DNA of 64,000 bases, from positions 682,001-746,000 of the forward strand of contig NZ_CP071238.1 in NCBI RefSeq assembly GCF_017299535.1, written 5' to 3'. The translations under genes were made by a program, and so were the position numbers. The stretch comes from Serratia marcescens subsp. marcescens ATCC 13880. Lineage in GTDB: Bacteria; Pseudomonadota; Gammaproteobacteria; Enterobacterales; Enterobacteriaceae. Of the stretch, positions 15,815 to 45,401 are shown one piece after another (within the stretch, counting starts at the first letter, position 1; each line of letters begins with the position of its first letter). Under the pieces are notes generated by a model. It did no database searches. It was not told the DNA's origin and was given only the letters and a program-made list of their open reading frames with translations.

Positions 15815-15901
15815 ATGAGACAGACAGACAACATGCGCAACATCAGCCTGAAAACCACAATTATTACCACCACCGATACCACAGGTAACGGGGCGGGCTG
15901 A
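15815..15901 (+). CDS. thrL: thr operon leader peptide
   Basis: A 28-codon leader rich in regulatory codons. It has eight Thr codons, seven of them in the [11 protein letters not shown] run, plus three Ile codons, and ends TTGNGAG as in E. coli ThrL. Ribosome stalling at these codons when threonyl- or isoleucyl-tRNA is short lets RNA polymerase read through the attenuator. Two in-frame ATGs exist (15815 and 15833). 15815 is preferred because GAGGGG precedes it, whereas 15833 has no ribosome site and would give a 22-residue peptide, nearer the 21 of E. coli. Confidence 0.88.
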
Positions 15902-15920
15902 CGCGCACAGGAAACACAGA

Positions 15921-15956
15921 AAAAAGCCCGCACCTAATCAGTGCGGGCTTTTTTTT
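15921..15956 (+). terminator. thr operon attenuator
   Basis: The stem agcccgcac (15925-15933) pairs with gtgcgggct (15941-15949) around a 7-nt loop. It is followed by seven T. It lies between thrL and thrA and is the transcription attenuator responding to threonine and isoleucine supply. Confidence 0.95.
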
Positions 15957-15981
15957 CGGCTTAAATTCGGAGAGATCACAC

Positions 15982-29422: not shown

Positions 29423-29528
29423 TCGCCCTTAAGCGGGCACGGGGCGGCCGAGGTGTCGTTCCCGGAAACCAGCACGGGCGTCGAGGCAACTCTGCGCCCG
29501 TGCACGCATGTTAAGGGTAAGCGAAAGA
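29423..29528 (+). other. dnaK-dnaJ intergenic hairpin region
   Basis: A 106-bp spacer within the operon. It contains a strong stem: gcacgggcg (29472-29480) pairs with cgcccgtgc (29495-29503). No T run follows, so it is not a typical terminator. It may be a processing or stability element setting the DnaK to DnaJ ratio (inference). Confidence 0.5.
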
Positions 29529-30653
29529 ATGGCGAAGAAAGACTATTACGAGATTCTCGGCGTCAGCAAGACGGCGGATGAACGTGAGATCAAAAAGGCG
29601 TATAAACGCCTGGCGATGAAATACCATCCTGACCGCAACCAGGAACAAGACGCCGAAACCAAGTTTAAAGAAGTTAAAGAAGCTTACGAAGTTCTGACCG
29701 ACGACCAGAAACGCGCGGCCTACGACCAGTATGGGCACGCGGCCTTTGAACAGGGCGGCATGGGCGGCGGCGGCTTTGGCGGCGGCGCCGACTTCAGCGA
29801 TATCTTTGGCGACGTGTTTGGCGACATCTTCGGCGGAGGCCGCCGTCAGCGCGCCAGCCGCGGTTCCGATCTGCGCTATAACATGGAGCTGACCCTCGAG
29901 GAAGCGGTACGTGGCGTCACCAAAGAGATCCGCATCCCGACGCTGGAAGAGTGCGACGTCTGCCACGGCAGCGGCGCCAAACCGGGCAGCTCGCCGGTGA
30001 CCTGTCCAACCTGTCACGGTCAGGGCCAGGTGCAGATGCGTCAGGGCTTCTTCACCGTGCAACAGGCGTGTCCGCATTGCCATGGCCGCGGTCAGATTAT
30101 CAAAGATCCGTGCAACAAGTGCCACGGCCACGGCCGGGTAGAAAAATCCAAGACGCTGTCGGTGAAAATTCCGGCCGGCGTCGATACCGGCGACCGTATC
30201 CGCCTGGCGGGTGAAGGTGAAGCCGGCGAACACGGCGCACCGGCGGGCGATCTGTACGTTCAGGTGCAGGTGAAGGCGCACCCGATCTTCGAGCGTGAAG
30301 GCAACAACCTGTACTGTGAAGTGCCGATCAACTTCGCCATGGCGGCGCTGGGCGGCGAGATTGAAGTGCCGACGCTGGACGGCCGGGTGAAACTGAAGGT
30401 GCCTTCGGAGACCCAAACCGGCAAGCTGTTCCGCATGCGCGGCAAGGGCGTGAAATCGGTGCGCGGCGGCAGCCAGGGCGACCTGCTGTGTCGCGTGGTG
30501 GTGGAAACCCCGGTCAATCTGAACGACAAGCAGAAGCAGCTGCTGCGTGAGCTGGAAGAGAGCCTGGGTGGCCCGTCCGGCGACAAGAACAGCCCGCGTT
30601 CGAAGAGCTTCTTCGACGGGGTGAAAAAGTTCTTTGACGATCTGACTCGCTAA
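29529..30653 (+). CDS. dnaJ: Co-chaperone DnaJ (Hsp40)
   Basis: A 374-residue type I Hsp40. The J domain (1-70) has the HPD tripeptide at residues 33-35, then a G/F-rich stretch. A zinc domain with four CxxCxGxG-type repeats follows ([32 protein letters not shown]), then the C-terminal substrate-binding part. It stimulates DnaK ATPase and delivers substrates. The ATG at 29529 begins [10 protein letters not shown] as in the family; seven extra upstream codons in frame are ignored. Confidence 0.98.
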
Positions 30654-38309: not shown

Positions 38310-38780
38310 ATGACGGCTCAGGTTATCAGTGACAGCGCGGTGCTGGTTCACTTCACGCTGAAACTGGAAGACGGTTCGACCGCCGAATCCACCCGCAGCA
38401 GCGGCAAACCGGCGCTGTTCCGCCTGGGTGACGGCAGCCTGTCGGCGCCGCTGGAAGAGCAACTGCTCGGCCTGCGCGCGGGCGACAAGCGCGCCTTTAC
38501 CCTGCAGCCGGAAGCGGCGTTCGGCGCGGAGAACCCGGATCTGGTCCAGTTCTTCTCGCGCCGCGACTTCGCGGAAACCGGCGTGCCGGACGTGGGCACC
38601 ATCATGCTGTTTACCGCCATCGACGGCAGCGAAATGCCGGGCGTGGTGCGCGCGGTGGCGGAGGATTCAATCACCGTCGATTTCAACCATCCGCTGGCGG
38701 GCCATCCGGTGACCTTCGACATCGAAGTGCTGGAGATCGATCCGCAGCAGGAGGAGACGCATGCAAATATTGCTGGCTAA
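38310..38780 (+). CDS. fkpB: FKBP-type peptidyl-prolyl isomerase FkpB (SlpA)
   Basis: A 156-residue SlyD-like FKBP (E. coli FkpB 149). [18 protein letters not shown], then [16 protein letters not shown] and the C-terminal [19 protein letters not shown] are diagnostic. It acts as a proline isomerase and chaperone. The start is ATG 38310 with GGTGAG in good position; GTG 38301 is possible and would overlap the lspA stop. Its 3' end overlaps ispH by 20 bp. Confidence 0.93.
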
Positions 38781-39714
38781 CCCGCGCGGCTTCTGCGCCG
38801 GGGTTGATCGTGCGATCAGCATCGTGGAACGCGCGCTGGAGCTATATGGCGCGCCGATCTACGTTCGACATGAAGTGGTGCACAACCGCTACGTGGTCGA
38901 CAGCCTGCGTGAGCGCGGCGCGGTGTTTATCGAAGAGATCGCCGAAGTGCCGGACGGCTCTATCCTGATCTTCTCGGCGCACGGCGTTTCTCAGGCGGTG
39001 CGCGCCGAAGCCAAGGCGCGCGATCTGACCATGCTGTTCGACGCCACCTGTCCTCTGGTGACCAAGGTGCATATGGAAGTGGCGCGCGCCAGCCGCCGCG
39101 GCACCGAAGCGATCCTGATCGGCCATGCCGGGCACCCGGAGGTGGAAGGCACCATGGGCCAGTACAGCAACCCGCAGGGCGGCATGTACCTGGTCGAATC
39201 GCCGGAAGACGTGTGGAAGCTGCAGGTGAAAGACGAAAACAACCTGTGCTTCATGACGCAGACCACGCTGTCGGTTGATGATACCTCGGACGTGATCGAT
39301 GCGCTGCGTCAGCGCTTCCCGAGCATTATCGGTCCGCGCAAGGATGACATTTGCTACGCCACCACCAACCGTCAGGAAGCGGTGCGCAACCTGGCCGGCG
39401 ATGCGGACGTGGTGCTGGTGGTGGGGTCGAAGAACTCTTCCAACTCTAACCGTCTGGCCGAACTGGCGCAGCGCGTGGGCAAACCGGCTTATCTGATCGA
39501 TTCGGCGGCGGATATTCAGGAAAGCTGGCTGAGCGAAGCGCGCAATATCGGCGTTACCGCCGGCGCCTCGGCGCCGGACGTGCTGGTGCAGGAGGTGATC
39601 TCCCGCCTGAAAGCGCTGGGCGGCCTGGACGTGCATGAAATCAGCGGGCGCGAAGAGAACATCGTGTTCGAAGTGCCGAAAGAGCTGCGCGTGGACGTCC
39701 GTCAGATTGACTGA
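38761..39714 (+). CDS. ispH: 4-hydroxy-3-methylbut-2-enyl diphosphate reductase
   Basis: A 317-residue iron-sulfur enzyme ending the MEP isoprenoid pathway by reducing HMBPP to IPP and DMAPP. The three cluster cysteines are C12 ([12 protein letters not shown]), C97 (DATCPLV) and C198 ([11 protein letters not shown]). The glutamate of the [12 protein letters not shown] C-terminal region is in place. It ends the operon and is followed by a strong terminator. After it the local base composition drops sharply in GC. Confidence 0.98.
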
Positions 39715-39732
39715 GGTGCGTGAGTGAATGAC

Positions 39733-39763
39733 AACGGGGGGCTTAGGCTTCCCGTTTTTTTTT
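39733..39763 (+). terminator. Terminator of the ileS-ispH operon
   Basis: The stem acggggggc / gcttcccgt (39734-39755, some G-T pairs, loop ttag) is followed by nine T. It marks the end of the conserved operon and the left border of the accessory locus. Confidence 0.9.
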
Positions 39764-39987
39764 GGAAAGCGAGCCGCGTAAAAAATAACACTCCATGCAT
39801 ATTCAAATTTTCTGCTAACTAAAGTCAAATTTATTCTGAGCATTTGAAATAACGTCGGTGTGATTAATTATATAGGCTGGCGAAAAGTCATTAATAAGAA
39901 TATCATTAGGCTGCAATCTAAATAGGCCCGGTGTTGGCAAAGTGATTACAATAATTACAATAATGGATGTTGCAGATGTTTCTTATT

Positions 39988-40914
39988 TTATTCCTGCCGA
40001 ATATGTTCTACGGCGGTTAATCCCTTCTCCTGCAAATAGAGTTTCATATGTTCCAGCAATCGTCTGACTTTTAATGGCTGGATCTCCCTACGTGGCATAA
40101 TGGCGTAGCAATTAATTTCCGGTAAGCGCCAATCGGGCAATATTTCAATCAGCTCGCCGCTGCGCAATTCACGTTCAACATTGGCGAAGAAATTGCGAAT
40201 GATGCCCTTGCCGGTCAACGCCAACTCCTTCATCGCCATACCGCTGTTGGTGAACAAACGCCCGGTCATGCGCATGCGGTGTTCATCGCCGTTGCGATGG
40301 ATAAGACGGACAAACTGTGGGTTGCCGAGCGGCGTAAAGGTGACCCAATGGTGATGGGTCAGCGCCTGCGGCGAATCCGGCACGCCGTGGTGTGCCAGGT
40401 AGGCCGGTGAGGCGCACAACACTTCGCGGCAGCGGGCCAACCGCGTGGAAACGTAGCTGGAATCGGCCAGCACGCCGCCGCGTATCGCCAGATCGATGCG
40501 TTGCGCGATCAGGTCTATCTTCTCATCGTGGATCTCCAGCCGCAGCGTGAGCCGAGGATGCTCGTCGAGAAAGCTTTGCAACGCCGGCACCAGATAGTGA
40601 GTGGCGAATTCGGTGGAAGTGGCGACGCGCAGTTCGCCGACCAGTTCTCCGCGCAGCGCGGCGATCCGTTGTTGGCCACGTTCGGCAGCGTGGATCATCA
40701 GCAGGCAATCTTCATAAAAACACAATCCTGCTTCGGTCAGACTCAATGAACGCGTCGATCGCAACAGTAATTGAATGCCCAGATGCTCCTCCAGCTGGCG
40801 AATATGTTGGCTGACGGCGGAGGTCGTCATGCCCAATTCTTTTGCCGCCATGCTGAATGCGCCGCAATCGACCACTTTTGAGAAAATGGCCATGCGTTTT
40901 AAAATATTGCTCAT
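39988..40914 (-). CDS. LysR-family regulator divergent from the isonitrile operon
   Basis: A 308-residue LysR regulator. The helix-turn-helix lies at residues 1-65 (FSMAAKELGMTTSAVSQHI), followed by a TauD-unrelated effector domain of the CrgA-like branch (GELRVATSTEF, YVSTRLARCREVLCASPAYL). It is transcribed away from isnA with 191 bp between the starts. A 17-bp palindrome with LysR spacing (T-N11-A) sits 6-22 bp upstream of its start, suggesting autoregulation. It is the likely controller of isnA-isnB-GT. The effector is unknown; tyrosine, the presumed pathway precursor, is only a guess. Codon use is like the core genes. Confidence 0.9.
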   Translation of the reverse strand: MSNILKRMAIFSKVVDCGAFSMAAKELGMTTSAVSQHIRQLEEHLGIQLLLRSTRSLSLTEAGLCFYEDCLLMIHAAERGQQRIAALRGELVGELRVATSTEFATHYLVPALQSFLDEHPRLTLRLEIHDEKIDLIAQRIDLAIRGGVLADSSYVSTRLARCREVLCASPAYLAHHGVPDSPQALTHHHWVTFTPLGNPQFVRLIHRNGDEHRMRMTGRLFTNSGMAMKELALTGKGIIRNFFANVERELRSGELIEILPDWRLPEINCYAIMPRREIQPLKVRRLLEHMKLYLQEKGLTAVEHIRQE

Positions 40915-40919
40915 AGTTT

Positions 40920-40936
40920 GTTAAGCACAACTTAAC
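40920..40936. promoter_or_regulatory. Candidate LysR operator (17-bp palindrome)
   Basis: GTTAAG-cacaa-CTTAAC is a perfect inverted repeat with 6-bp arms. It contains the LysR-type T-N11-A pattern. It lies directly upstream of the LysR start codon at 40914, in the divergent intergenic region. The palindrome is seen; regulator binding is inferred. Confidence 0.6.
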
Positions 40937-41043
40937 CAAGATTGTGAATTATACGGGCTAATAATATAGCATCATCTCTTCTATATTGCCTGAAGCATAT
41001 AAACGACGGGCTGATTATTATTTTGCAGAGATTTTTTCTCTTT

Positions 41044-41069
41044 TTGATAAATCTTATTGCGCTTATCAA
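41044..41069. promoter_or_regulatory. Inverted repeat upstream of isnA
   Basis: TTGATAA (41044-41050) and TTATCAA (41063-41069) are perfect inverted arms with 12 bp between them, ending 36 bp before the isnA start. It could be a second operator or a leader hairpin. The right arm overlaps the region expected for the isnA promoter. Confidence 0.5.
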
Positions 41070-41105
41070 TAATACTCCCGCACCACATCGTAACAGGAGC
41101 TCATT

Positions 41106-42071
41106 GTGGACAGCGCTCAGAAAGAAGAAATATCGTTAAAGATCCTACGTGAATTATTGCAATACCGCCGCCGTTTCCCCGGCGACGACACCTCGATCGC
41201 TGAAGAAGAACGGCGGGTCACTCAGGTGCAATTGCCGCGCATTCGGGCATTCATCGAAAACGAGCAACGTATCGAATTCGTGCTGCCGGCCTTCCCGACC
41301 AAGTCGCCCAACACCAACAAGGTGATCGGCGCGGTGCCGGACATGGCGGAGCGGCTGTCGCTGATCTTCCTCAACTCGCTATGCCAGCGCATTCAACTCT
41401 ACTACCCGCCGGGCGCGCATATTGTTATCTGCTCAGATGGCCACGTGTTCGGCGATCTGATCCGCGTCAGTGACGAAGCGATCAACCACTATCAGCGCGA
41501 AATTGAAAACCTGCTGCATGAAGTGGGCGCGACGCATCTCAGCGTATTCAACCTCGGCGACGTCAAAGGCCTGGCTGAACATACCGATGATTACGATCTG
41601 CTGCGCCAACTGTTGGTGGAGGGCTATGCCGAATCGGAAGAGGCGATCAAACAGCAGTTGATGCAGGACGAACAGGGCCTCTTGCTGTACCGCGCCATCA
41701 CGCGCTTCCTGTATGAAGACAGCCAACTGCCGGGCTACAGCGGTTCCAACGCCGCGCTGCAGAAAGACGCCAAACGGCGCGCCTGCGGAGTGATCCAGCG
41801 TAGCTGGGCCTGGGGCAATCTGCTGGCGCAGCATTTCCCGGCGGCGATCCGGCTGTCGATTCACCCGCAGCCGGTCGACAGTCTGAAAATGGGCATCCAC
41901 ATGATGCCGACCAAAGACGATTGGCTGACGCCGTGGCATGGCGTGGCAGCCAACGTGAACGGCCAGTTCGTGCTGATGAAGCGTAAAGACGCGCAGAGCC
42001 TGGACGGCGAATTGGTGGCGATCCGCGGCACGCCGAGCCATTACCTGATCGAACAACCGCAGATGGCCTGA
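41106..42071 (+). CDS. isnA: Isonitrile synthase (PvcA/IsnA, DIT1 family)
   Basis: A 321-residue DIT1/PvcA-family protein. The diagnostic motif is seen as FVLPAFPTKSPN followed by NKVIGAVPDMAE (residues about 58-82). The C-terminal part has SIHPQPVDSLKMGIHMMP and the TPWHGV segment. The family converts the amino group of L-tyrosine or L-tryptophan to an isonitrile, taking the carbon from ribulose-5-phosphate. With isnB and the glycosyltransferase downstream, the tyrosine branch leading to a rhabduscin-like product is favoured. The start is GTG with AGGAG six bases upstream. It is the first gene of a three-gene operon. Substrate choice is inference. Confidence 0.92.
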   Translation: MDSAQKEEISLKILRELLQYRRRFPGDDTSIAEEERRVTQVQLPRIRAFIENEQRIEFVLPAFPTKSPNTNKVIGAVPDMAERLSLIFLNSLCQRIQLYYPPGAHIVICSDGHVFGDLIRVSDEAINHYQREIENLLHEVGATHLSVFNLGDVKGLAEHTDDYDLLRQLLVEGYAESEEAIKQQLMQDEQGLLLYRAITRFLYEDSQLPGYSGSNAALQKDAKRRACGVIQRSWAWGNLLAQHFPAAIRLSIHPQPVDSLKMGIHMMPTKDDWLTPWHGVAANVNGQFVLMKRKDAQSLDGELVAIRGTPSHYLIEQPQMA

Positions 42072-42167
42072 GGCCGCTGCAGGCTTTTGCGCCCGAAATC
42101 CTGGCGGACGCGTTTTTGACGGCACGTTGCCGTGTGAGCAGCACATTCGATGCAAGGAGAATCACCG

Positions 42168-43031
42168 ATGAATAACCAACCGCTTAATTGCCATATTCAA
42201 CCGAATACCCCGTTTGGCGCGATCCTGACGCCGCAGCATCCGGGGCAAAAGATCGGCGAACTGCCGGTGGCAGCGCTGCGGGCGCTGGCGCAGGAACATC
42301 ATTTGCTGGTGCTGCGCGGATTCGACTCCGGTTTCAGCGATGGGGAGGTTCTGACGCGCTACGCCGAGCAGTGGGGCGAGATCATGATGTGGCCGTTCGG
42401 CGCGGTGCTGGACGTGAAGGAACATCCGGACGCCAAGGATCATATTTTCGACAGCAGCTACGTCCCGCTGCATTGGGATGGCATGTATAAGCCGACTATT
42501 CCCGAATTCCAGCTGTTCCACTGCGTGGCGGCGCCGTCGCCGGACGAAGGCGGGTGCACTACCTTCGTCGATACCACGCGGCTGCTGGCCAATGCGGACG
42601 AAGCGTTGCTGGATCAGTGGCTGTCGGTCTCGATCACCTACCGTATCAAGCAGGTGGTGCATTACGGCGGTGAAGTCTGTTCGCCGCTGGTGGTGCAGCA
42701 CCCGAACGGCAGGGGCTTGATCATGCGCTACAATGAACCGCCGACGGAAGGGAAAAAATTCCTCAATCAACATGCGCTGGAATATGACGGCGTGCCGGAA
42801 CAACAGCAGGAACAGTTCCACCACACTCTGCAGCAGCATCTGTACGATCCGCGTCACTATTATGCCCATCAGTGGCAACAGGGCGACGTGGTGGTGGCGG
42901 ACAACTTCTCGCTACTGCACGGCCGTGAGGGCTTTACCGCCCGTTCCGCGCGTCATTTGCAGCGCGTGCATATTCAAAGCAATCCGGTGTGCGCCAATCT
43001 GGCGCTGAAGCCGGCCAACGCAGAAGCTTAA
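42168..43031 (+). CDS. isnB: Fe(II)/2-oxoglutarate oxygenase (PvcB/IsnB, TauD family)
   Basis: A 287-residue TauD-fold oxygenase. The iron ligands are H102 and D104 (LHWDG) and H251 (LLHGREGF); the 2-oxoglutarate Arg is R262, 11 residues after H251 as in TauD. In the family IsnB desaturates the amino acid isonitrile with loss of CO2, giving the vinyl isonitrile; PvcB keeps the carboxylate instead. The ATG at 42168 has AAGGAGA upstream, so the longer frame from 42150 was rejected. It lies 96 bp after isnA and 10 bp before the glycosyltransferase. Confidence 0.92.
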   Translation: MNNQPLNCHIQPNTPFGAILTPQHPGQKIGELPVAALRALAQEHHLLVLRGFDSGFSDGEVLTRYAEQWGEIMMWPFGAVLDVKEHPDAKDHIFDSSYVPLHWDGMYKPTIPEFQLFHCVAAPSPDEGGCTTFVDTTRLLANADEALLDQWLSVSITYRIKQVVHYGGEVCSPLVVQHPNGRGLIMRYNEPPTEGKKFLNQHALEYDGVPEQQQEQFHHTLQQHLYDPRHYYAHQWQQGDVVVADNFSLLHGREGFTARSARHLQRVHIQSNPVCANLALKPANAEA

Positions 43032-43041
43032 AAGGAGCATT

Positions 43042-44316
43042 ATGGCAAGGATACTGATGGCGGCGGTCGCCACTCCGGGGCACGTCTACCCGATGTTAGC
43101 CATCGCTCGCCACCTGATTGCCCAAGGGCATCAGGTGCGAGTGATGACCGGCGCGCTGTTCCGCGAACGCGCCGAAGCGGCTGGGGCGAGCTTCGTGCCG
43201 TTCGACGCGCAGGTGGACTTCGACTATCGCCACCTGGAGGCGCATTTCCCCGAGCGCGCCGCGCTGCCGCCGGGCAACGCGCAGATGGCGCTGGCGCTGA
43301 AAGACTTCTTCGCCGCGCCGATCCCACTGTTGGATCGTCAGCTGCGTGCGGCCATCGCCGCCGAAAAGACCGATCTGCTGATGGTGGAGAACTGCTTCTA
43401 CGGCGTGCTGCCGCTGTTGCAGTCCGCCGAACGGCCGCCGGTGTTCGGGATCGGCGTCACGCCGCTGTCGTATTCTTCGCGCGACGCCATTTTCTATGGC
43501 CCGCGCATCCCGCCGGCGCTGCTGCCGCGGGCGCTGACCCGTGAGCAGTTGGTGGATGAAGAAACGCGGGTGTTGCTTGATGAGGTGCAGCAAAGCTTTG
43601 ATGCCGCGCTGGTGCAGGCGGGCGGGCGGCCGCTGAATCGCCCGTTCACCGACGCGCTGATCGGCGGCTGCGAGCGTTTCCTGCAGTTGGCCACCACGGC
43701 GCTGGAATATGAGCGTGACGATCTGCCGATCGGCGTGCGCTTCGTCGGCCCGCTGCGCAGCGGCGGCCAGCCGGCGGCGGAAGAAACGCTGTGGGAGGCA
43801 GACGATGATCGGCCGCTGGTGATCGTGTCTCAGGGCACGCTGGCCAATGTCGATCTGCATCAGCTGATCGTGCCGACGCTGCAAGCGCTGGCGCATCTGC
43901 CGGTGCGGGTGTTGGCCACCACCGGCGGGCGGGCGACGGAAGGCCTGATGGACGCGCTGCCGGGCAATGCCAGAGTGCGGGAGTTCATCTCCTTCGAACA
44001 CTGGCTGCCGGAGACGGCGCTGCTGATCACCAATGGCGGTTACGGCTCGATCAACTATGCGCTGGACAGCGGCGTGCCGCTGATTGTCGCCGGCACGGGC
44101 GAAGACAAACTGGAGGCGGCCGCGCGCGTGGTCGCCGCCGGCTGCGGCATCAGCCTGCACACCAGCACGCCGAGCCCTGAACAGATCCTGGCGGCGGCGA
44201 CGCGCATTCTGCAGCAGCCGATCTATCGACAACGCGCAGCGCTGGTGCGTGAGGATTATGCCCGCCACGATGCGCTGACGGCGATCGCCAACGAAGTGGC
44301 CGCCATTACCGCCTGA
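43042..44316 (+). CDS. UGT-like glycosyltransferase of the isonitrile operon
   Basis: A 424-residue GT-B, family 1-type glycosyltransferase. The N-terminal acceptor half starts ILMAAVATPGHVYPMLAIA. The C-terminal donor half holds VSQGTLAN, EFISFEHWLPETALLITNGGYGSINYAL (split here at the turn) and GVPLIVAGTGEDK, the UGT donor-sugar signature. In Xenorhabdus the matching enzyme adds a 4-acetamido-4,6-dideoxygalactose to the phenolic vinyl isonitrile, making rhabduscin. The sugar used here is not decided. No membrane segment is seen. A strong AGGAG ribosome site precedes the ATG, and a terminator follows. Confidence 0.88.
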   Translation: MARILMAAVATPGHVYPMLAIARHLIAQGHQVRVMTGALFRERAEAAGASFVPFDAQVDFDYRHLEAHFPERAALPPGNAQMALALKDFFAAPIPLLDRQLRAAIAAEKTDLLMVENCFYGVLPLLQSAERPPVFGIGVTPLSYSSRDAIFYGPRIPPALLPRALTREQLVDEETRVLLDEVQQSFDAALVQAGGRPLNRPFTDALIGGCERFLQLATTALEYERDDLPIGVRFVGPLRSGGQPAAEETLWEADDDRPLVIVSQGTLANVDLHQLIVPTLQALAHLPVRVLATTGGRATEGLMDALPGNARVREFISFEHWLPETALLITNGGYGSINYALDSGVPLIVAGTGEDKLEAAARVVAAGCGISLHTSTPSPEQILAAATRILQQPIYRQRAALVREDYARHDALTAIANEVAAITA

Positions 44317-44335
44317 CCACGCTGTGATCCTTTCC

Positions 44336-44362
44336 CCAGGCGCCGTTTTCGGCGCCTTTTTT
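44336..44362 (+). terminator. Terminator of the isonitrile operon
   Basis: The stem aggcgcc (44338-44344) and ggcgcct (44351-44357), loop gttttc, is followed by T. It marks the right border of the accessory locus. Confidence 0.92.
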
Positions 44363-44471
44363 CTGCACTTTTTTGCCATGGAAACTGCATGATTATGTAC
44401 AATCGTCGCAGGCCGCCAAATCGGTTGAATGTTAATCTCACGACAGCGCCGCTGATAAAAGCGGGGGAATA

Positions 44472-44491
44472 TCATAATTTTCTAATTATGA
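44472..44491. repeat. AT-rich palindrome upstream of dapB
   Basis: TCATAATT and AATTATGA are perfect 8-bp inverted arms with a 4-bp loop (ttct), about 90 bp before dapB. It may be an operator or part of the promoter. The binding factor is not recognised. Confidence 0.45.
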
Positions 44492-44546
44492 AATGAATCC
44501 TCTGGCGACGCTGAAGCGGGGCAGTTACCCTGAATCGATAGCCTAA

Positions 44547-45401
<855 letters not shown>

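Follow-up and report, generated by a model that had tools for sequence, protein, structure and literature searches.

A 64,000-nucleotide stretch of the 5.16 Mb genome of Serratia marcescens subsp. marcescens ATCC 13880 (C1:682001-746000, hereafter the window, to whose positions the coordinates below refer) was analysed for a rhabduscin-type isonitrile gene cluster. Four intact genes, i.e., lysR, isnA, isnB and a glycosyltransferase (GT) gene, lie between two flanking genes that, going by the sequence alone, we take to be ispH and dapB; the corresponding position in E. coli is presumably occupied by rihC. This is a real, intact and genus-wide isonitrile glycoside cluster of an already known type, and it probably encodes a pathway, general in Serratia, to a glycosylated vinyl isonitrile with whatever sugar attached, that is, rhabduscin or a close congener. 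The features are as follows.

38761..39714, plus strand: left flank, presumed ispH (coordinates and flank survey)
39988..40914, minus strand: lysR, LysR-type regulator gene divergent from isnA, read from an ATG at 40912-40914 (Pfam)
40915..41105, no strand: region between lysR and isnA, containing blocks conserved across the 14 Serratia rows aligned
40920..40936, no strand: predicted LysR operator GTTAAG-N5-CTTAAC, with a T-N11-A box inside, 5 bp before the lysR start codon
41106..42071, plus strand: isnA (published S. marcescens name pvcA), putative L-tyrosine isonitrile synthase gene (NCBIfam and PDB matches)
42168..43031, plus strand: isnB, putative Fe(II)/2-oxoglutarate tyrosine-isonitrile desaturase/decarboxylase gene of the vinyl isonitrile type (PDB match, marker residues and tree)
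43042..44316, plus strand: GT-B glycosyltransferase gene of the rhabduscin GT family (EryCIII-like_C, UDPGT, identity to X. nematophila and tree)
44338..44362, plus strand: intrinsic terminator, stem 44338-44357 and T tail (terminator scan)
44580..45401, plus strand: right flank, presumed dapB (coordinates and flank survey)

A sequence-only reading of this DNA had placed the same gene set here, with a GTG start, ribosome sites, a terminator and a divergent LysR gene, and had compared its enzymes with those of rhabduscin biosynthesis; the layout was confirmed, and isnA, isnB and a rhabduscin-family GT gene are indeed all present. The GTG start of isnA is preceded by AGGAG and is the start codon in 13/13 named Serratia loci. 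The isnB ATG at 42168 is preceded by AAGGAG, with a further in-frame ATG upstream at 42150, and the ribosome site of the GT gene is AAAAGGAG. The terminator stem has eight pairs, seven of them G-C, and is followed by the T tail; terminator-like sites numbered 6 against 4.8 in shuffles, so that the number of sites alone is not above chance. The GC content was 0.59 in isnA and isnB, 0.67 in the GT gene and 0.55 in lysR (over 39988-40911), with 0.60 for the window and 0.345 across 40912-41105.

The cluster was not a feature of one strain, as had been supposed. Among 30 genomes of the genus, the window's genome included (hereafter the Serratia genomes), isnA, the lysR orthologue and the GT gene were each found in 26, and in the same 26, with a single IsnA match in each carrier; the four without the cluster were the smallest genomes (1.5-3.6 Mb). 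Of 57 named loci surveyed, 13 were from Serratia, and all 13 carried lysR, isnA, isnB and GT. Both ispH and dapB were on the same stretch in 12 of them (in L010 about 5 kb of other DNA precedes dapB), and the thirteenth, L007, begins at a contig end and shows neither. On the stretches examined, some of which end at contig ends, ispH or dapB was seen in none of the 44 non-Serratia loci. The genes isnA, isnB and GT stood together in 19/19 Xenorhabdus loci; a GT gene was found near isnA in seven of ten Pectobacterium loci (L052, one of the seven, is broken; L055 and L057 come from a single genome, on separate contigs) and in none of 13 Photorhabdus loci, nor in those of P. mangiferae and Phaseolibacter. 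In the wider family, represented by 149 genomes drawn evenly, a GT match at 1e-80 occurred in five genomes from four genera (of 148). Based on these genome and locus counts, the system is patchy in the wider family and core in Serratia.

The suggestion that the cluster is a separately acquired module did not hold up either, at least as far as any visible recent gain is concerned. The isnA-GT stretch had no near match in 72,556 plasmid records and 39700-44600 had none in 20,395 E. coli records, sets that may lack records closely similar to the window's genome. Recent acquisition was rejected on these grounds, together with the presence of the cluster in 26/30 Serratia genomes, the ispH/dapB flanks in 12 of the 13 named loci and a GC content mostly near that of the window.

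The IsnA protein matched Pfam DIT1_PvcA at 3e-84 and scored 650 bits against the curated NCBIfam equivalog for L-tyrosine isonitrile synthase, TyIsonSynPvcA, which has a cut-off of 600. It also matched the solved structures PDB 9dhm and 9dh4 and P. aeruginosa PvcA (3e59), and was 96-98% identical to proteins of S. bockelmannii, S. nevei and S. marcescens. A tree was built from 31 selected rows, namely the window, five of the 57 loci and 25 homologues picked from the best 120 of 1100; in it IsnA grouped with Xenorhabdus, Photorhabdus and Pectobacterium and was split from PvcA with support of 92/91, which falls under the tree tool's own mark for strong support. That tyrosine is the substrate is read from the NCBIfam cut-off, the tryptophan-specific branch lying outside the sampling of the trees. 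Among the matches listed was a protein (P0147) of Candidatus Fukatsuia symbiotica, an aphid symbiont, which is named isocyanide synthase in its source and is 70% identical to IsnA; in contrast, the four small Serratia genomes had no isnA match.

The IsnB protein matched Pfam TauD at 1e-47. The ligands H102, D104, H251 and R262, noted earlier with numbering from the ATG at 42168, are present; these first three residues and also R266 are conserved in 54 of the 55 IsnB rows (the window and 54 loci), the exception being the broken L052, and R262 is kept in 116 of 122 rows comprising the window, PvcB and the best 120 of 800 homologues. The nearest solved structure was PDB 7tcl (394 bits), followed by PvcB 3eat (285 bits), and K108 and N189 of IsnB align with K107 and N188 of 7tcl. 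A K and an N at just these positions are named for PIsnB in PMC9467999, and 7tcl is for this reason taken to be the PIsnB structure described there. According to the part of that paper available, K/R at 107 together with N/H at 188 (PIsnB numbering) is found in vinyl-isonitrile formers, and L with C in isocyanoacrylate formers (PMC9467999). With K108 and N189, IsnB falls among the former, whereas P. aeruginosa PvcB has L and C. K/R and N occurred together in 53 of the 55 rows, P. mangiferae having L and C and L052 being broken, and in 105 of the 122 rows.

In a tree of 25 chosen rows (19 of the 120 listed homologues, four of the 54 IsnB-bearing loci, the window and PvcB, X. nematophila IsnB not being among them) IsnB was separated from PvcB with support of 100/99. 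Grouping with the paerucumarin branch, which had been named beforehand as an outcome that would speak against the rhabduscin interpretation, thus occurred neither for IsnB nor for IsnA. On the other side, 17 of the 122 rows carry other pairs or gaps at the marker positions, i.e., R/G in four, M/N in three, L/C in two (one of them PvcB), T/N in two, V/L in two, and K/-, S/N, S/- and V/C in one each. Moreover, the changes K113L and N194C in one orthologue are reported to have left the product unchanged (PMC9467999). Because single changes failed to switch the product there, the residues are best treated as predictive markers of product type and not as proof, and selectivity would not be controlled by them.

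This assignment has to be weighed against published work on the pvcABC genes of S. marcescens (sma0021, KC291199), which the sequence-only reading had overlooked and which have a published regulator, RssAB, and a different product. According to the available text of that study, phosphorylated RssB (RssB-P) is a repressor that binds in the promoter region of pvcA, and pvc deletion delayed swarming and raised biofilm (PMC5109203). On the evidence, pvcABC is the isnA-isnB-GT locus, since each of the 26 carriers has a single IsnA match and there are three genes, the KC291199 sequence itself lying outside the comparison; for the same reason of the single match, pvcA is almost surely isnA. The RssB-P fragment is given as -349 to +38 of pvcA (PMC5109203), and on window coordinates it would run across the lysR-isnA interval into the beginning of lysR. 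The terms glycosyltransferase, LysR, isonitrile and rhabduscin are absent from the main text of PMC5109203, and pvc is unmentioned in an S. marcescens RpoS paper (PMC7266296).

The operon was published as one for ICDH-coumarin. In strain CH-1, pvc overexpression was reported to yield this compound as identified by liquid chromatography-mass spectrometry and nuclear magnetic resonance, the compound was lost without pvc, and the purified compound was active when added back (PMC5109203). If so, the cluster would make ICDH-coumarin (paerucumarin), an Fe3+ chelator turning off RssAB, IsnB would be PvcB-like and the GT would have some other job. These experiments count against a vinyl isonitrile product, and genomic HpaB and HpaC could in principle replace PvcC. 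However, the markers and the tree place IsnB with decarboxylating enzymes, K and N standing where PvcB has L and C, and loss of the carboxylate would remove the lactone carbon, as the coumarin should keep the carboxyl carbon of tyrosine. The gene after isnB encodes a GT and not PvcC or PvcD, whereas the PvcB-type cluster of P. mangiferae has HpaB-family and cytochrome c proteins there; the one HpaB-family protein detected in the window's genome scores as HpaB itself (1082 bits) and adjoins HpaC, and no search for PvcD was made beyond the locus. The printed m/z of 204.03023 in negative-ion electrospray, as it stands in the text available, equals [M-H]- of C10H7NO4 to five decimals, whereas the calculated values for ICDH-coumarin (C10H5NO4) are 202.0146 in negative and 204.0291 in positive mode; the printed value may be a slip. 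Because of the IsnB type, the GT as third gene, the lack of a dedicated PvcC among the proteins found and the printed m/z, the published assignment does not sit easily with the sequence, and we consider the coumarin improbable as the product of this cluster.

With a vinyl isonitrile preferred, the next question is its sugar. The GT matched EryCIII-like_C (3e-20) and also UDPGT, and was 58% identical to the X. nematophila protein named rhabduscin glycosyltransferase and 63-70% identical to GTs of Pectobacterium and Dickeya. It shares the family of the rhabduscin enzyme, and the Serratia sugar may differ because the GT falls in a separate subclade and its donor-binding half is less alike. Identity to the X. 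nematophila enzyme was 62% over the first 225 residues and 53% over the rest, and it is the later half of GT-B enzymes that normally binds the donor. In a tree of 26 rows, the window and 25 homologues picked from the best 120 of 249, the Serratia enzymes were placed beside those of Pectobacterium and Dickeya (91/95), and Xenorhabdus and Photorhabdus formed a separate group (99/95). Both observations tell against rhabduscin and in favour of a vinyl isonitrile glycoside with another sugar, such as a byelyankacin-like rhamnoside or a hexoside, which is a subset of the general pathway proposed here and seems to us rather unlikely. Byelyankacin is a rhamnoside, and RmlC is needed for dTDP-rhamnose. 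The presence of rmlC in 14 of the 26 carriers would suit such a product; the remaining 12, the window's genome included, had no rmlC match and so no sign of a byelyankacin-type RmlC supply. Rhamnose as a donor common to all carriers was rejected for this reason, and the rmlC gaps argue against a rhamnoside as the shared product, without proving an amino sugar. Byelyankacin has been named as a natural product from the same intermediates (PMC9467999, in part). Glucose is a possible donor of the Serratia GT.

The sugar of rhabduscin is 4-acetamido-4,6-dideoxygalactose. The window's genome encodes WecE (715 bits), a second WecE-like protein (657 bits) and WecD (331 bits), as would be needed for a TDP-Fuc4NAc supply, and WecD was over its cut-off in 26/26 carriers and in 28/30 Serratia genomes. 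However, common antigen genes are widespread in Enterobacterales, and the argument from the donor sugar is therefore weak. The sugar is termed "amidoglycosyl" in the accessible text of PMC6386379. A second set resembling the genes for enterobacterial common antigen (ECA) was seen at L074:3934-9584 (G000:C1 ~551900-557600), at a different place from the ECA genes of L075; it encodes a dTDP-glucose 4,6-dehydratase, a WecF-like protein under the cut-off, the WecE-like protein of 657 bits and a weakly flippase-like protein, and may feed another surface glycan using the same amino sugar. In genome G166 of the wider family (L079, L081), two rhabduscin-type GT genes stand in tandem, and the 4.3 kb examined contained neither an isnA nor an isnB match. 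This recalls Photorhabdus luminescens, in which GT genes are reported to be duplicated and separate, the GT of TT01 lying away from isnAB (PMC6386379, in part).

The divergent regulator matched Pfam LysR_substrate (6.3e-36) and HTH_1 (4.3e-21) and reached no NCBIfam cut-off, being nearest to the YafC/AaeR type (best 25 of 53 families); the protein queries used for lysR in the family searches and in the locus and genome surveys lacked the initiator Met. The palindrome GTTAAG-N5-CTTAAC at 40920-40936 is the sole exact site in the window's genome, where about 0.1 would be expected by composition. A single copy is present in each of 25 carriers out of 26, always at the same step from the lysR match (a step of 9, counted from the codon after the start codon, the gap to the start codon being 5 bp); carrier G024 had no exact copy, and G025, which is without the cluster, had one site elsewhere. 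As a control, the pattern written backward was found in two of the 30 Serratia genomes. In the 14 aligned named Serratia rows the arms were invariant and the spacer varied. The palindrome contains a T-N11-A box, the usual LysR signature, and is predicted to be the LysR operator. A comparable arrangement exists in P. aeruginosa, where the LysR protein PtxR is reported to raise pvc expression (PMC3639982, in part). The LysR adjoining the pvc-like cluster of Pseudomonas mangiferae was 31% identical to that of Serratia, which points to a likeness to ptxR-pvc in arrangement rather than close kinship.

The conservation of the arms while the spacer changes also bears on whether the operon could be a silent or decaying remnant. 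In one of the 26 carriers (G003:C1:783231-784187) a TAA is flagged in the IsnA match, yet the open frame is still 329 aa and the TAA may only sit at the match end. Against decay, enzyme ligands and frames are all intact in the window, isnA, lysR and GT are present in 26/26 full-size Serratia genomes, and expression has been reported in S. marcescens (PMC5109203, in part), so that a remnant seems very improbable.

Among known systems, the rhabduscin cluster of X. nematophila (XNC1_1221-1223) has the same gene set and order, its IsnA being 71% identical to that of Serratia; the order and the IsnB markers of this type were assessed in 19 Xenorhabdus loci, none of them from X. nematophila. Unlike in Serratia, no ispH, dapB or divergent LysR gene lies beside the cluster in these 19 loci, the X. 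nematophila GT differs more in its later half, and the Serratia product is a prediction from its genes. The isnA-isnB-GT cluster of Pectobacterium is among the closest outside Serratia, with IsnA identities of 74-76% (seven full-length loci, L013-L018 and L058), but it occupies another chromosomal place; in 8/10 loci a distantly related LysR gene (33-39%) follows the cluster in the same orientation, and no locus has one divergent from isnA. The pvcABCD genes and ptxR of P. aeruginosa resemble the Serratia locus in having PvcA and PvcB homologues and an adjacent LysR regulator and differ in the L and C of PvcB. In P. mangiferae (L049) the HpaB-family and cytochrome c proteins that follow are presumably PvcC and PvcD, and no GT was detected.

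From the gene content, protein families, marker residues, phylogeny, distribution and palindrome computed here, we infer the reactions, the sugar, the LysR control and the biological role as follows. IsnA would convert tyrosine and ribulose-5-phosphate into L-tyrosine isonitrile, IsnB would form 4-(2-isocyanovinyl)phenol by desaturation and CO2 loss, and the GT would place a sugar on the phenol, most likely 4-acetamido-4,6-dideoxygalactose diverted from the synthesis of enterobacterial common antigen. The operon, and probably lysR itself, would be controlled by the divergent LysR via the dedicated palindrome, and the RssAB two-component system would repress the operon, as the S. marcescens study reports. 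Sugar-capped isonitriles serve insect-killing bacteria in blocking the formation of melanin; in Serratia, the product would be likely to act on copper enzymes of the phenoloxidase/tyrosinase type and on metal homeostasis. The activity against insect melanisation and the copper chelation suggested by the sequence-only reading would be candidate roles.

In the parts of the literature available, phenoloxidase inhibition was obtained by expressing just isnA-isnB-GT of X. nematophila in E. coli, S. entomophila or X. poinarii, and isnAB homologues are stated to occur in S. marcescens (PMC6386379); the rhabduscin aglycone inhibited the human alternative complement pathway (PMC4683029). However, two results of the former study count against such a role in Serratia or in insects. 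Supernatants of S. entomophila showed no phenoloxidase inhibition, a point whose weight depends on that strain carrying and expressing the cluster, and the X. nematophila cluster was dispensable for virulence in Spodoptera (PMC6386379). No claim of rhabduscin production by Serratia was found among the titles and abstract openings listed in the searches, which mostly do not cover subscription papers.

Two further elements were found in the window, both on the plus strand, i.e., the tpke11 small RNA at 29454-29530 (69.8 bits) and the threonine operon leader at 15840-15957 (117 bits).

What should last from this study is that the sequence conflicts with the published product, that the cluster is core in Serratia and that a private LysR operator is predicted for it. 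More tentatively, the iron-responsive RssAB circuit of swarming and biofilm formation could act through a rhabduscin-type glycoside and no coumarin siderophore, a core metal-binding phenoloxidase inhibitor under the control of RssAB and a private LysR that may sense the isonitrile; we find this quite possible, though we would not yet favour it. If the cluster does make a glycosylated vinyl isonitrile, the published compound assignment in a bacterial swarming model would need correcting, and a core trait of Serratia would be a compound class tied to insect phenoloxidase inhibition (PMC6386379, in part) and, through the aglycone, to complement inhibition (PMC4683029, in part).

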